Shown one piece after another: positions 22,043-26,418 of a stretch of 48,821 bases of DNA. How positions within the stretch are numbered: position 1 is the stretch's first letter; every line of letters begins with the position of its first letter. Below the pieces are notes generated by a model. It was not told the origin of the DNA and did no database searches. It saw only the letters and a program-made list of their open reading frames with translations. Position numbers and translations under genes: made by a program. This DNA comes from a virus, in the IMG/VR virus record IMGVR_UViG_3300037459_000261, positions 1 to 48,821 of that record; one strand, given 5' to 3'.

Positions 22043-22264
22043 CTATCTTACCACTTCGAGGGCAAAGAGCGGCCCGAAGTCCAGGGCTAGGATTCGGTGC
22101 TCTGTGCCACATTCGCATGCGTAGACTAGCCAGCGCCGATGGGTCCCATTGCAGGCGATGGTTCCGGAGTAGACGAACGCGTGGGTATGAGACGGAGGGC
22201 GCGGTGCGGCGCCGACCGAGGCGTCGGCGAGCGGGAGACGACCGGCCTGAGCGTTGACGATCAT
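22043..22264 (-). CDS. Small hypothetical protein, 73 aa
   Basis: I start it at ATG 22264, overlapping the methyltransferase stop (ATGA). The C-terminal half includes CNGTHRRWLVYACECGTEH, a possible metal site. No family recognised; translational coupling to the methyltransferase suggests a shared role or simply operon packing. Confidence 0.55.
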   Translation of the reverse strand: MIVNAQAGRLPLADASVGAAPRPPSHTHAFVYSGTIACNGTHRRWLVYACECGTEHRILALDFGPLFALEVVR

Positions 22265-23592
22265 CGGTCCCACGCGGGTAGATAGACCATTTCCGGCTCG
22301 GCGTCCGCGGGCTTCCCCAGGATTGTGCCGGCCTCGTCGTAGAGCCTTGCGGCAGTCGCCTGGATCTCGTCGTCAAGATCCCAAAGAGGTCCTTCGAATC
22401 CCGCGCACGTTCTCACGGGCGCCATCGTGTGGCTCACCGTACGCGCCGGCTCGAAGTTGAGCGTCAGCCACTCCTGCCGCCGTTCTCCGGGATCGCCGTT
22501 CTTGCGGCCCTTGCGCCAGGTGTCCTGGTTCGCCCCGTATCGACGTTGCAGCTCGACGCTGCGCCAGGGTCCGCCGTTGATGACGGGCTCCGTCTCGTGC
22601 ACCAGGACCCGGCAATCGGCCTCGTGCGCTTCCTCGGCGAGCTCGACGACACGCTCGCGGGTGAGGGCCGGACCGTAGCCCGTGGTCCCCTGGTAGGGCG
22701 GATCGATGCTGACGAGATCCCCCGGGCGGAAGACCGGCGAGGACGTGGCGAGGTCGAGGTACATGGCGGAGCCGGGGGCGGCGGTGAATCGGTCGAGGCG
22801 GTCGGCGTCGAGGGCGACCTGGAAGCGATCCTTCCAGCCCAGCCGATTCGCCGATTCGCTCACGGATGCGTAGCCCGCCACGCCCTCCCAGAAGGCCTCA
22901 AGGCCGTCGCTGGTGGAATCTTTGTTGCATCGCTTGACGAAGCCTTCGGCATCGCGTCCGGGTTCGCCCGGCGCCAGATGTCCTGAGTATCCCGCGACGC
23001 CCTCCCACTTCTCCCCGTACGAGAGCGGCTTCCCGCTGAAGTTCCCCTTCTGGAGGACGATCCACCGGGCGAGGCGTTCGTTGCGGGCGGCGAGCAGGTC
23101 GCGGTGAAGGCCGCCCTTCGGAGAGCTGGCGTGTTTCCACAGTCCGTCTCCGATCTTTGTCCGTTTACCTCGGACCCACTTCGCCCCGGCGGAGCCCACG
23201 GGGACGGCGGAGTGTATGCCCGCCTGCACAATCTGCCACCGCGCTACCCTCCCCAGCGGGTGAACTGGCACCGGCTCGTCCTTCCACAGCTTCCAGAGCT
23301 CCTCGCCGTCGCAGGGCGCGTCGCGGATGATCTCGGCGACTGCCGGGAGCCAACCGCCGAACGCCGCCTGCCAGAACTCCACGATCGCCACGTCCGCGTC
23401 GACCATGAGCCAGCGCGTCGGCCAGGTGCCGAGGACGTCGAGGACGTGCGCAGCGACGGCGCGCTTGCCGCCCATGCGAGTCACGGGCGGGAATTCGCCG
23501 GCCATGGCGCGGCACTCGGTGGCCGCGAGGCCGCAGCAGAGCGATATCCAGCGAGGAGACTGAGCGTCTTTCACCTCGACATCGGCGATCAC
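22261..23592 (-). CDS. Dam-like adenine-N6 DNA methyltransferase, D12 class, 443 aa
   Basis: Carries an N-terminal MGGKR motif (family 'GGK' region), WLMVDADVAIVEFWQAAFGG as a candidate SAM-binding strand, and motif IV as LVSIDPPYQGTTGY, the DPPY catalytic motif of D12 class adenine methylases. The protein is longer (443 aa) than Dam (about 280 aa), with a middle target-recognition region full of basic residues. It probably methylates adenines in phage DNA to resist host restriction. A separate small remnant of the same enzyme class lies at 34611-34667. Start and stop are both coupled to neighbours. Confidence 0.82.
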   Translation of the reverse strand: MIADVEVKDAQSPRWISLCCGLAATECRAMAGEFPPVTRMGGKRAVAAHVLDVLGTWPTRWLMVDADVAIVEFWQAAFGGWLPAVAEIIRDAPCDGEELWKLWKDEPVPVHPLGRVARWQIVQAGIHSAVPVGSAGAKWVRGKRTKIGDGLWKHASSPKGGLHRDLLAARNERLARWIVLQKGNFSGKPLSYGEKWEGVAGYSGHLAPGEPGRDAEGFVKRCNKDSTSDGLEAFWEGVAGYASVSESANRLGWKDRFQVALDADRLDRFTAAPGSAMYLDLATSSPVFRPGDLVSIDPPYQGTTGYGPALTRERVVELAEEAHEADCRVLVHETEPVINGGPWRSVELQRRYGANQDTWRKGRKNGDPGERRQEWLTLNFEPARTVSHTMAPVRTCAGFEGPLWDLDDEIQATAARLYDEAGTILGKPADAEPEMVYLPAWDR

Positions 23593-23856: not shown

Positions 23857-25032
23857 TCAAGGCGCCGCGCTCAGGATCCCAGCGCGGCGCGCCAGAGACG
23901 TCCATGCCAGAGCAGCCACTCCTGGAAGCTGCCCATCGCCAATCGCCTCAAGTCGGTCCACCCTCTTGGCCAGGCCATGAGGTGCGATTCGACCCACTCG
24001 GGGTTCAGGAGGCCACCCTGGTCCGTACGCAGGTTCGGGCCACCCTGTGTTCTGCGCCCACTCCCTTGCCCGCCGTCGCCGTCGCTCTTCGTCGGCGTCG
24101 GGAAGCGCTCCGCCCTCGGCACCCACAGCCCCTCCGCTTCCAGGACCGCCCCCCGAAGTGTTGCCCCGCCGGTCTGTCCCGGGCTCGGGTCGGTGGCCAG
24201 CTGAGCCTCCGACTTCTTCGTCGGCGTCGGCCACATGTTCCGCCTCGCCATCGTCTCCAGGCTCGGCCGCACTTTCCCAACTCGGCCGGCTGCGCCGCCC
24301 TGGTTCGTCCCGTAGTTCCTCGCGGTCGGCGTCGGGAAGACCTCGCCGTAGGCGGGCCGCTTCCCACCGTTCCCGCTGTATCGCGCTTGCTCCTGGTCCT
24401 GGAGGGTCATCATCGAGGCGGTAGGAGTCGGGAAGATATCCGGCATGTAGACCGCGTGCATCAGGCTCGCGGACCTCCTGCCGCCTTTGTTCGCCGCCCT
24501 CGGAGGCATCCCGGCAGCGTCCATCGACGTTGGTGTAGGCCAAGATCCAGAGGCGGTCCCGGCGGTGAGGGGCGCCAAGGGAGGACGCTGGGAAACAGTC
24601 CCACTCCGCATCGAACCCGCACGCGGCCAGGTCTCCGAGTATGGATCCAAAGTACCCGTGAGCAAGGAGGCCTGGAACGTTCTCCAGCAGGACGAATCGG
24701 GGTCCCACCTCGCGAACGACCCGGGCGGTGTCGGGCCACATGTTCCGCGGGTCGTCCTTTCCGAGTCCCTTGCCGGCGACGGAGAAGGGCGGACAGGGGA
24801 AACCCGCGCTGATGACGTCGACCCGCCCTCGCCAGGCGGTGCCGTCGAAGTCCCGGATGTCGGAGAAGATCGGGAACGGGCATGTTCCCAGGAATCCGTC
24901 GCGCTGGCGAGCGCCGAGGACGTCCCGGCGGTAGGGATCGATCTCGACGGCAGCCACGGTGCGCCACCCGAGAAAATGATGGGTTCCAAGGAGTCCGCCT
25001 CCGGCTCCGGCGAAGAGAGCGAACTCATCCAT
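23857..25032 (-). CDS. C5-cytosine DNA methyltransferase, 391 aa
   Basis: N-terminal catalytic domain complete: motif I FALFAGAGGG, motif IV SAGFPCPPFS with catalytic C80, motif VI LLENVPG (117-119 ENV), motif VIII APHRRDRLWILAY (157-160). The C-terminal part contains RVDRLEAIGDGQLPGVAAL, the motif X-like end of the family. Between them lies a low-complexity Asp/Glu/Arg-rich region with repeated 'DAD' (LPDADREE, VADADEE, LPDADEE). ATG 25032 overlaps the preceding gene's stop. Remarkably, the +1 frame of the same DNA is also open and family-like (separate entry). Likely role: protection from restriction. Confidence 0.85.
   Translation of the reverse strand: MDEFALFAGAGGGLLGTHHFLGWRTVAAVEIDPYRRDVLGARQRDGFLGTCPFPIFSDIRDFDGTAWRGRVDVISAGFPCPPFSVAGKGLGKDDPRNMWPDTARVVREVGPRFVLLENVPGLLAHGYFGSILGDLAACGFDAEWDCFPASSLGAPHRRDRLWILAYTNVDGRCRDASEGGEQRRQEVREPDARGLHAGYLPDSYRLDDDPPGPGASAIQRERWEAARLRRGLPDADREELRDEPGRRSRPSWESAAEPGDDGEAEHVADADEEVGGSAGHRPEPGTDRRGNTSGGGPGSGGAVGAEGGALPDADEERRRRRAREWAQNTGWPEPAYGPGWPPEPRVGRIAPHGLAKRVDRLEAIGDGQLPGVAALAWTSLARRAGILSAAP
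23871..24812 (-). other. Second open, family-like frame inside the C5 methyltransferase gene
   Basis: The frame one base downstream (+1) of the methyltransferase is open from 25028 to the stop at 23871. From about 24812 it reads as the other well-known style of phage methylase C-terminus: CWRTFQASLLTGTLDPYSET, WPRAGSMRSG, then four PTPT boxes (SWPTPTSMD, FPTPTAS, FPTPTARN, WPTPTKK, FPTPTKS) and LNPEWVES, MAWPRGWTDLRRL, SFQEWLLWHG. Each PTPT box is the shifted reading of a 'DAD' box in the main frame. It has no own good start near 24812. Either overprinting, ribosomal frameshifting or shared ancestry by frame shift explains it. Confidence 0.6.
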
Positions 25033-25282
25033 TTTTCCCTAGCCCGACCAAGTCACTCACTCCGAACGAGGCCCGGATCGGAACCTCGCCGCAGATCTCC
25101 CGGCGGGCCTTGATTTCCAGACGGTCGAAATCGATTTCCTCGACGTACCATTTCGTGTCGGCGTCGTCTACTCGTACCGTGATCGTGGAGCCCTCGGGGA
25201 AGTGCTCGGCAAGTGCTCGACCGGCCCGAGACCGGGCCTCATGAGCATCGAGAACGATCATCTTCAAGTCCATGAAGGTCAT
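25025..25282 (-). CDS. Small hypothetical protein, 85 aa
   Basis: I choose ATG 25282 overlapping the upstream stop (ATGA); the longer reading lacks support. Compact alpha/beta sequence with LAEHFPEGSTITVRVDDADT and VEEIDFDRLEIKARREI. It ends overlapping the methyltransferase start by 8 nt. No family recognised. Confidence 0.6.
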   Translation of the reverse strand: MTFMDLKMIVLDAHEARSRAGRALAEHFPEGSTITVRVDDADTKWYVEEIDFDRLEIKARREICGEVPIRASFGVSDLVGLGKNG

Positions 25283-26418
25283 CCGTACACCTGGCCTGCC
25301 GCCAGCTTCCGCAAGTCCTGGAGGTCGGTCACCAGTCCACCGCCGTCGGTGATGGCGCGCCACAGCGGAAGCGGGGCGCCCTGAAGCGGCACGCCGCGGA
25401 GCGTCGTCAGGAGTTCGCCCTCCTGGTCGGTGTAGACGTCTACCTCGGCGGAGATGAAGGCGGAAAGGGAGATCGTGGTCGAGGTGCGCGGGAAGAGCTC
25501 GCGCCGATCGGCGTGAGCGAAGCCGCCCGAGACGATGACGTCGGACCCGGCGAAGGCGGCGAAGAAGTTCCCGTCTGTCGGTCCCAGCGGCGTCACCGAG
25601 ACGATGACGAGTCCGAACGGCACGATGACGAGAGCGCGGGAGAGCGAGCCGGAGGTCGCCGTCGGTGTCGTGGGTGTGCCGGCCGACTTGTCGCCTTTCA
25701 CCACGGTTCGCCCCCCCACGGTGTCGAGAATCAGGGCGGCGTAGCTCTCGCCGGCGAGAAGCGCCTGGGCGGAGCCGTCGAGGTCGTCGAAGGTCAGCAC
25801 GGAGGCGGGTTCGTGGCGCGCCACGCCCTGCACCACCACGGTGTAGCGCGGCGCCACCACGGTGTCGTCCGGCGCGGTGGCAGCTGTGAACACGCCGTCG
25901 GCGTGCGCGACCTGGAAGGTGGTGCTGTCCCCGCGGCCCGTCTGCAGGCCGTTCGGATGGGGTCCGATCAGCCCGCTTTTCGTCCTGACGTGGTCGAGGA
26001 TGAACTCGAGCGCGCTGGCGGAGACGTCGGCGGGCAGCACGAATTCGATGTCGATCTCCAGGAACGACCCGGCGGGGATGTCGGGCGCGGGGAAGACGGT
26101 GTCGCCGCCCAGCGCCAAGGGAGACCCCGGGGTTCCCTCGGGCGACGTGGCGGAGACCGAGATCCGGAAGCCGCCAGCGTCCAGCACCTGGAAGCCCTCG
26201 GCCTCAAACTCCGCGGACGTGTCCTTGATCCGGGCCTGGGCGAGGATGCCGTAGCCGATGGCGTCGTCAATGCCGCCGACCCCGGCGAGGTCGTTGTGAA
26301 CCCGGAGCGTGCCGGCGAACGTCGTCGCGCCCGGCGTCGCGTTCACCACCGCAAGCGGCGCGGCGGAGTCGTTCAGGACGTCGGACGTGTCCGTCCAGGT
26401 GATCACTGGGGCTGCCAT
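25279..26418 (-). CDS. Beta-rich virion-like protein, 379 aa
   Basis: Long run of beta strands with Thr, Ala, Val and Gly (RYTVVVQGVARHEPASV, LVIVPFGLVIVSVTPLG) and no enzyme motif. Ends in a helical LVTDLQDLRKLAAGQVYG. Composition and operon context among other structural-type genes suggest a tail or baseplate appendage. Not a recognised family; alternative is a cell-surface protein. Confidence 0.6.
   Translation of the reverse strand: MAAPVITWTDTSDVLNDSAAPLAVVNATPGATTFAGTLRVHNDLAGVGGIDDAIGYGILAQARIKDTSAEFEAEGFQVLDAGGFRISVSATSPEGTPGSPLALGGDTVFPAPDIPAGSFLEIDIEFVLPADVSASALEFILDHVRTKSGLIGPHPNGLQTGRGDSTTFQVAHADGVFTAATAPDDTVVAPRYTVVVQGVARHEPASVLTFDDLDGSAQALLAGESYAALILDTVGGRTVVKGDKSAGTPTTPTATSGSLSRALVIVPFGLVIVSVTPLGPTDGNFFAAFAGSDVIVSGGFAHADRRELFPRTSTTISLSAFISAEVDVYTDQEGELLTTLRGVPLQGAPLPLWRAITDGGGLVTDLQDLRKLAAGQVYG

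Follow-up and report, generated by a model that had tools for sequence, protein, structure and literature searches.

Constraint on two overlapping frames of a phage C5-methyltransferase gene points to a two-polypeptide enzyme

Introduction

In M.EcoHK31I, the coding sequence of the small subunit reportedly lies within that of the large subunit but in a different frame, an arrangement that Lee, Kam and Shaw are said to have described in NAR in 1995. M.EcoHK31I (YGGCCR) is a natural two-polypeptide C5 methyltransferase that carries motifs I–VIII and X on its large chain and motif IX alone on its small chain, with the predicted TRD in the large subunit (PMC3404938), and it has been termed 'naturally split' (PMC3439449). 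M.AquI (CYCGRG) also consists of two subunits, one carrying motifs I–VIII and the other, small one carrying part of the recognition region together with motifs IX and X (PMC3404938).

Here we describe a viral locus at which a C5-methyltransferase gene is open and constrained in two frames. The window, by which we mean the whole stretch of DNA that was analysed (48,821 nt, IMG/VR record IMGVR_UViG_3300037459_000261), contains ORF A (23857–25032, minus strand, 391 amino acids) and, in its +1 frame, ORF B (23871–25028, minus strand, 385 amino acids), which share a strand and overlap over nearly their full length. A first-pass annotation of this DNA had proposed a conserved second protein in the +1 frame of the methyltransferase gene and offered three readings of it: overprinting, programmed frameshifting, or an old frame shift that founded one protein family from another. 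We show that both frames are under selection, that both possess starts and that the methyltransferase motifs are split between A and B. The pair very probably encodes a two-polypeptide C5 methyltransferase of the EcoHK31I kind, with A as the putative alpha and B as the putative beta subunit; for this enzyme we infer the assembly, the mutual dependence of the chains, the target and the role. Our literature search, with most subscription journals outside its reach, found no paper describing the phage A/B overlap.

Results

ORF A matched PF00145 in Pfam (E = 4e-32, with the match ending at residue 168) and PHROG 363 (E = 9e-59), and scored under the curated cut-off of the NCBIfam dcm model. ORF B matched two C-terminal PHROGs as well as PHROG 1008, 'DNA methyltransferase' (E = 6e-26); a Pfam search found no family for it and a profile search against the PDB gave no significant match. 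The catalytic large domain occupies residues 1–170 of A (24523–25032, minus strand; FAGAGGG, GFPCPPFS, LLENVPG, GAPHRRDR), and the variable region of B contains five PTPT boxes on the same strand, reading WPTPT (24528–24542), FPTPT (24420–24434), FPTPT (24324–24338), WPTPT (24219–24233) and FPTPT (24090–24104). Towards its end B carries LNPEWVESHLMAWPRGWTDL (23949–24008, minus strand), assigned as motif IX by alignment to canonical motif IX, and this segment is overlapped by the motif X region of A (EPRVGRIAPHGLAKRVDRLEAIGDGQLPGVAALAW, 23902–24006, minus strand), placed by AlphaFold2 and by sequence.

Both ORFs are open and B encodes a conserved protein, as the first-pass annotation had proposed, and the five PTPT boxes, TWPRAGSMRSG and LNPEWVESHLMAWPRGWTDL all lie where it had put them. 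Its proposal that each PTPT box is the shifted reading of a DAD-type box holds for three of the five (boxes 3, 4 and 5, read by A as PDAD, ADAD and PDAD) and fails for the other two. The two-frame reading explains why DAD boxes recur in these methylases, as the frame-A shadow of the PTPT boxes in B. When A's synonymous codons in the window were shuffled, B contained on average 0.20 PTP boxes versus the five present (a number reached in 0 of 5,000 shuffles), and LNPxWV appeared in 0.4% of shuffles.

Frame A contains motifs I, IV (PC), VI (ENV) and VIII and the large-domain fold. AlphaFold2 modelled A of the window as a large domain plus motif X without a small domain, with a pLDDT of about 95 over residues 1–170 and of 90–95 over the motif X helix, while residues 171–360 were mostly of low confidence (pLDDT below 50 over most of this intervening part). 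Foldseek returned M.HhaI as the top match for this model, over 172 columns that correspond to the large domain. Motif X in A is supported by the predicted helix and by GDGQLP in the window, which stands for GNGQVP in relatives. A does not combine a TRD with motif IX as a single-chain enzyme would; motif IX lies in B, where the family C-terminus LNPxWVEWLMGxPxGWTD aligns to the canonical motif IX, RLTPTECERLQGFPDGWTD, of the single-chain enzyme L346, with alignment z scores of 9–10 for B family members and 3.9 for the window copy. The AlphaFold2 model of the B protein alone was poor (pLDDT 57.6) and this low-confidence model returned no fold match, so that the assignment of B as the small domain is based on motif IX and on position. 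Motifs I–VIII and X thus sit on one polypeptide and motif IX on the other, with both polypeptides encoded and under selection, as in the EcoHK31I type. The two conserved proteins, which had been read as two styles of methylase on one DNA, are better described as the two halves of one enzyme.

In the window copy the motif IX/X zone is longer by one codon in both frames (23902–24008, minus strand), and motif X reads GD for GN. With these two departures from consensus it may be weakened, and its sequence suggests that it may be drifting.

Translation signals are present for both frames. A begins with ATG at 25030–25032 and B with ATG at 25026–25028, 4 nt after the A start and in the same placement as in relatives, and a Shine–Dalgarno-like AGGG (25037–25040) precedes the A start by 4 nt and the B start by 8 nt, all on the minus strand. 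An upstream ORF (25025–25363) ends in a TGA (25025–25027) that overlaps B's ATG as ATGA. In 132 loci, the window included, B's ATG lies exactly 4 nt downstream of the A start position, at which we found ATG (65 loci), GTG (44), TTG (18) or TTA (5), and the Shine–Dalgarno core again stands at modal spacings of 4 nt (A) and 8 nt (B). At the five loci with TTA, A must begin elsewhere, and in-frame upstream candidate starts for A are present there. The base before B's ATG is A in 126 of the 132 loci and G in the window; together with an A start ending in TG, a base A at this position creates a frame-B TGA that abuts B's ATG. In the branch resembling Paenibacillus phage Shelly, B starts inside A, and 19 of 21 internal B starts are preceded by a Shine–Dalgarno match of at least 4 nt, against a background of 26%.

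Stop codons in frame B are depleted across the family. Expected numbers were obtained by permuting A's synonymous codons within each gene. Among 49 genes chosen by the frame-A peptide RVxRLxxLGN, a less biased sample although that peptide shares DNA with B's GWTDL, frame B contained 59 stops versus 281 expected, and the third frame 840 versus 704. The corresponding frame-B counts were 139 versus 430 in a B-selected sample of 71 genes and 80 versus 274 in 59 genes from bacterial genomes, the third frame of the latter having 930 versus 705. At a GC of 0.68, the lack of stops in the window's frame B does not by itself reach significance (1 versus 3.0, p = 0.11); the length of the open stretch does (p = 0.024), and does so strongly in low-GC relatives. 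Gene GC ranges from 0.39 to 0.72 across relatives, and both frames are open in those at 0.39–0.50, including the lowest-GC case (L339; gene GC 0.39, flank/contig 0.31). In low-GC genomes the GC of the gene is raised over that of its flanks (flank 0.38, gene 0.49, slope 0.41; bacterial-genome loci L184–L263). The same excess in GC of dual-coded genes over their flanks, again in low-GC genomes, was noted among loci L184–L263 and L264–L343.

Selection was assessed by classing isolated differences between independent pairs according to their effect in each frame, using 28 pairs from viral, phage-record and plasmid sequences (set 1) and 16 pairs from bacterial genomes (set 2); the values come from plain counting, in which transitions had a fixed weight, rather than from a full maximum-likelihood model. 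In the variable region dNN/dNS was 0.12 (0.08–0.18) in set 1 and 0.06 (0.03–0.09) in set 2, with dNS/dSN at 2.9 in both sets, and the usual codon-position pattern of A was reversed. Neighbouring control genes gave 0.82 (0.50–1.49) and 0.09, respectively, and set against them the variable-region ratios identify B as the main coding frame there. A dominates in the catalytic region, where dNN/dNS was 0.32 and 0.28, ratios that place B under constraint there as well. Purifying selection is acting on both frames, with constraint passing from A in the catalytic part to B in the variable part. The depletion of stops in B and the purifying selection on it exceed what A explains, and selection on both frames lends support to overprinting among the three readings; selection on frame A alone, which the first-pass annotation had named as a refuting outcome, was tested for and was not borne out.

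Three pattern scans recovered at least 424, at least 564 and at least 548 relatives, and a single-protein scan in which ORF B of the window was run against viral contigs gave no pattern matches. In the IMG/VR loci, which were found by the B motif, the recognised B motif always lies in the +1 frame with respect to motifs IV, VI, VIII and X. Contigs of Pseudomonas, Acinetobacter, beta-proteobacteria, Verrucomicrobia and others carry relatives, presumably within prophages, and further relatives were found in E. coli genomes, Salmonella phages and plasmids of Leptospira and Acinetobacter. Matches of B to phage records by tblastn fell within genes annotated as cytosine methyltransferase. Paenibacillus phage Shelly, in which the gene region has a GC of about 0.46, has the B frame listed as 'g55 internal gene', and in Babsiella gp55 sits within gp54.

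Several annotations of these loci are worth recording. The records of Pseudomonas phage phPA-G and of a P. aeruginosa plasmid (L171, 1001–1729; L176, 1001–1687) give frame B as the CDS, under 'hypothetical protein', and leave frame A unannotated. An E. coli PCP07014 locus (L349, 601–1362) is annotated as a pseudogene, and both of its frames are broken at nearly one point. In the window, the methylase is adjoined by an ORF of 443 amino acids (22261–23592, minus strand) with a DPPYQG stretch like adenine-methyltransferase motif IV; this ORF had no Pfam or PHROG match.

Other phages and plasmids carry the same modules in different arrangements. At locus L264 (1790–2302 and 1992–3059), motif VIII is directly followed by the end of A, and B comprises the PTPT boxes together with motifs IX and X. 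Streptomyces phage Samy (L347, 1351–1881 and 1943–2692) has separate genes in tandem, the one with motifs I–VIII and the other with PTPT boxes and motifs IX and X. In the Megaera plasmid L181, motifs IX and X are found in frame A and the PTPT boxes remain in frame B. Methylases that carry this segment in the catalytic frame have C-termini that are matched by the same PHROGs as B. Judged by their sequences, these rearranged layouts fit a single enzyme whose recognition part may sit in either frame. Of the third reading, an old frame shift, the idea that a switch of frame carried pieces across, in one direction or the other, gains some support from motif IX, motif X or the PTPT boxes occurring in other frame combinations in other phages. 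A candidate split relative, Lucky2013 gp113/gp114, was rejected on account of an ordinary motif IX and a lack of PTPT boxes.

Discussion

We propose that one mRNA, with one ribosome-binding site serving two start codons 4 nt apart, would yield both A and B. A would supply the AdoMet-binding and catalytic large domain with motifs I–VIII and X, the part between motifs VIII and X being a presumed weakly constrained spacer, and B would supply the target-recognition region, with its PTPT boxes, and motif IX. The two chains would then assemble into one enzyme, which probably methylates the phage DNA and could so protect it from host restriction. On a broader scale, it is likely that the catalytic and recognition subunits are maintained as one fully overlapping gene pair in a lineage spread widely among phages and prophages. 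Recognition would then evolve in B, with A needing only to stay open there, and transfer of the PTPT boxes and of motifs IX and X from frame to frame in different phages would have produced several split layouts of one enzyme.

Under programmed ribosomal frameshifting, a single chain would instead run from the catalytic portion of A into the recognition portion of B; since the variable region and motif IX follow in B, an A-to-B fusion would make a plausible methylase except for motif X. We regard this as very unlikely, because B possesses a conserved ATG and a ribosome-binding site of its own, where a frameshift gene would have a second frame without a start, because in most relatives a TGA precedes that ATG in frame, and because the fusion would forgo motif X, which stays conserved in A; B is, moreover, constrained upstream of any such shift. 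The separate possibility that B is translated but acts outside the methylase, for example as an anti-restriction or regulatory protein, could draw on the fact that B alone has neither a Pfam match nor a confident fold. It remains unlikely, though somewhat less so, given that B carries the motif IX that A does not have, that the PHROGs it matches extend to methylase C-termini in the catalytic frame and that L264 and phage Samy join the same segment to motif X.

An origin of B as a by-product of the conservation of A and of high GC, whether as an annotation artefact or as the fossil of an old frame, is the least credible of these alternatives and extremely improbable. The similarity of B in the catalytic region does follow in part from conserved A residues, and B alone is annotated as a hypothetical protein in some records, but stops are depleted in B only, the variable region is constrained more in B than in A, and both frames stay open at low GC. 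Opening of B by chance at high GC was ruled out by this B-only depletion in relatives, whose third frame is undepleted, and conservation of A as the sole source of B by the reversed codon-position pattern of the variable region together with the control genes.

Shared by hundreds of diverse phages, a same-strand overlap some 385 codons long would, by our own estimate, rank among the longest and most widespread cases of dual-coding genes in dsDNA viruses. Many records annotate just one of the two proteins. The arrangement predicts that frame A cloned alone would give an inactive methylase, and it offers a natural system for the evolution of an enzyme as two frames of one gene.

Compared with described enzymes and families, A and B resemble several in part. 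PHROG 363 and PHROG 1008 contain A and B, respectively; they are listed as separate families, with no indication that a single DNA stretch encodes both in different frames, and PHROG 1008 also matches C-termini in the catalytic frame. The large domain of M.HhaI matches A over 172 columns, although M.HhaI is a single chain with its own TRD and motif IX. M.AquI shares with the phage pair the placement of catalytic motifs and of recognition region and motif IX on separate chains, but has motif X on its small chain, whereas the phage motif X stays in A; the division at L264 and in Samy is AquI-like. The likeness to M.EcoHK31I, compared by its described layout, lies in A holding motifs I–VIII and X and B holding motif IX. 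Phage B differs in that it nearly spans A, starts only 4 nt later and has repeated PTPT boxes and a constrained variable region, and the predicted TRD of M.EcoHK31I is in its large subunit, whereas we assign the phage recognition region to B. By this analogy, the phage A/B family most likely works like M.EcoHK31I.
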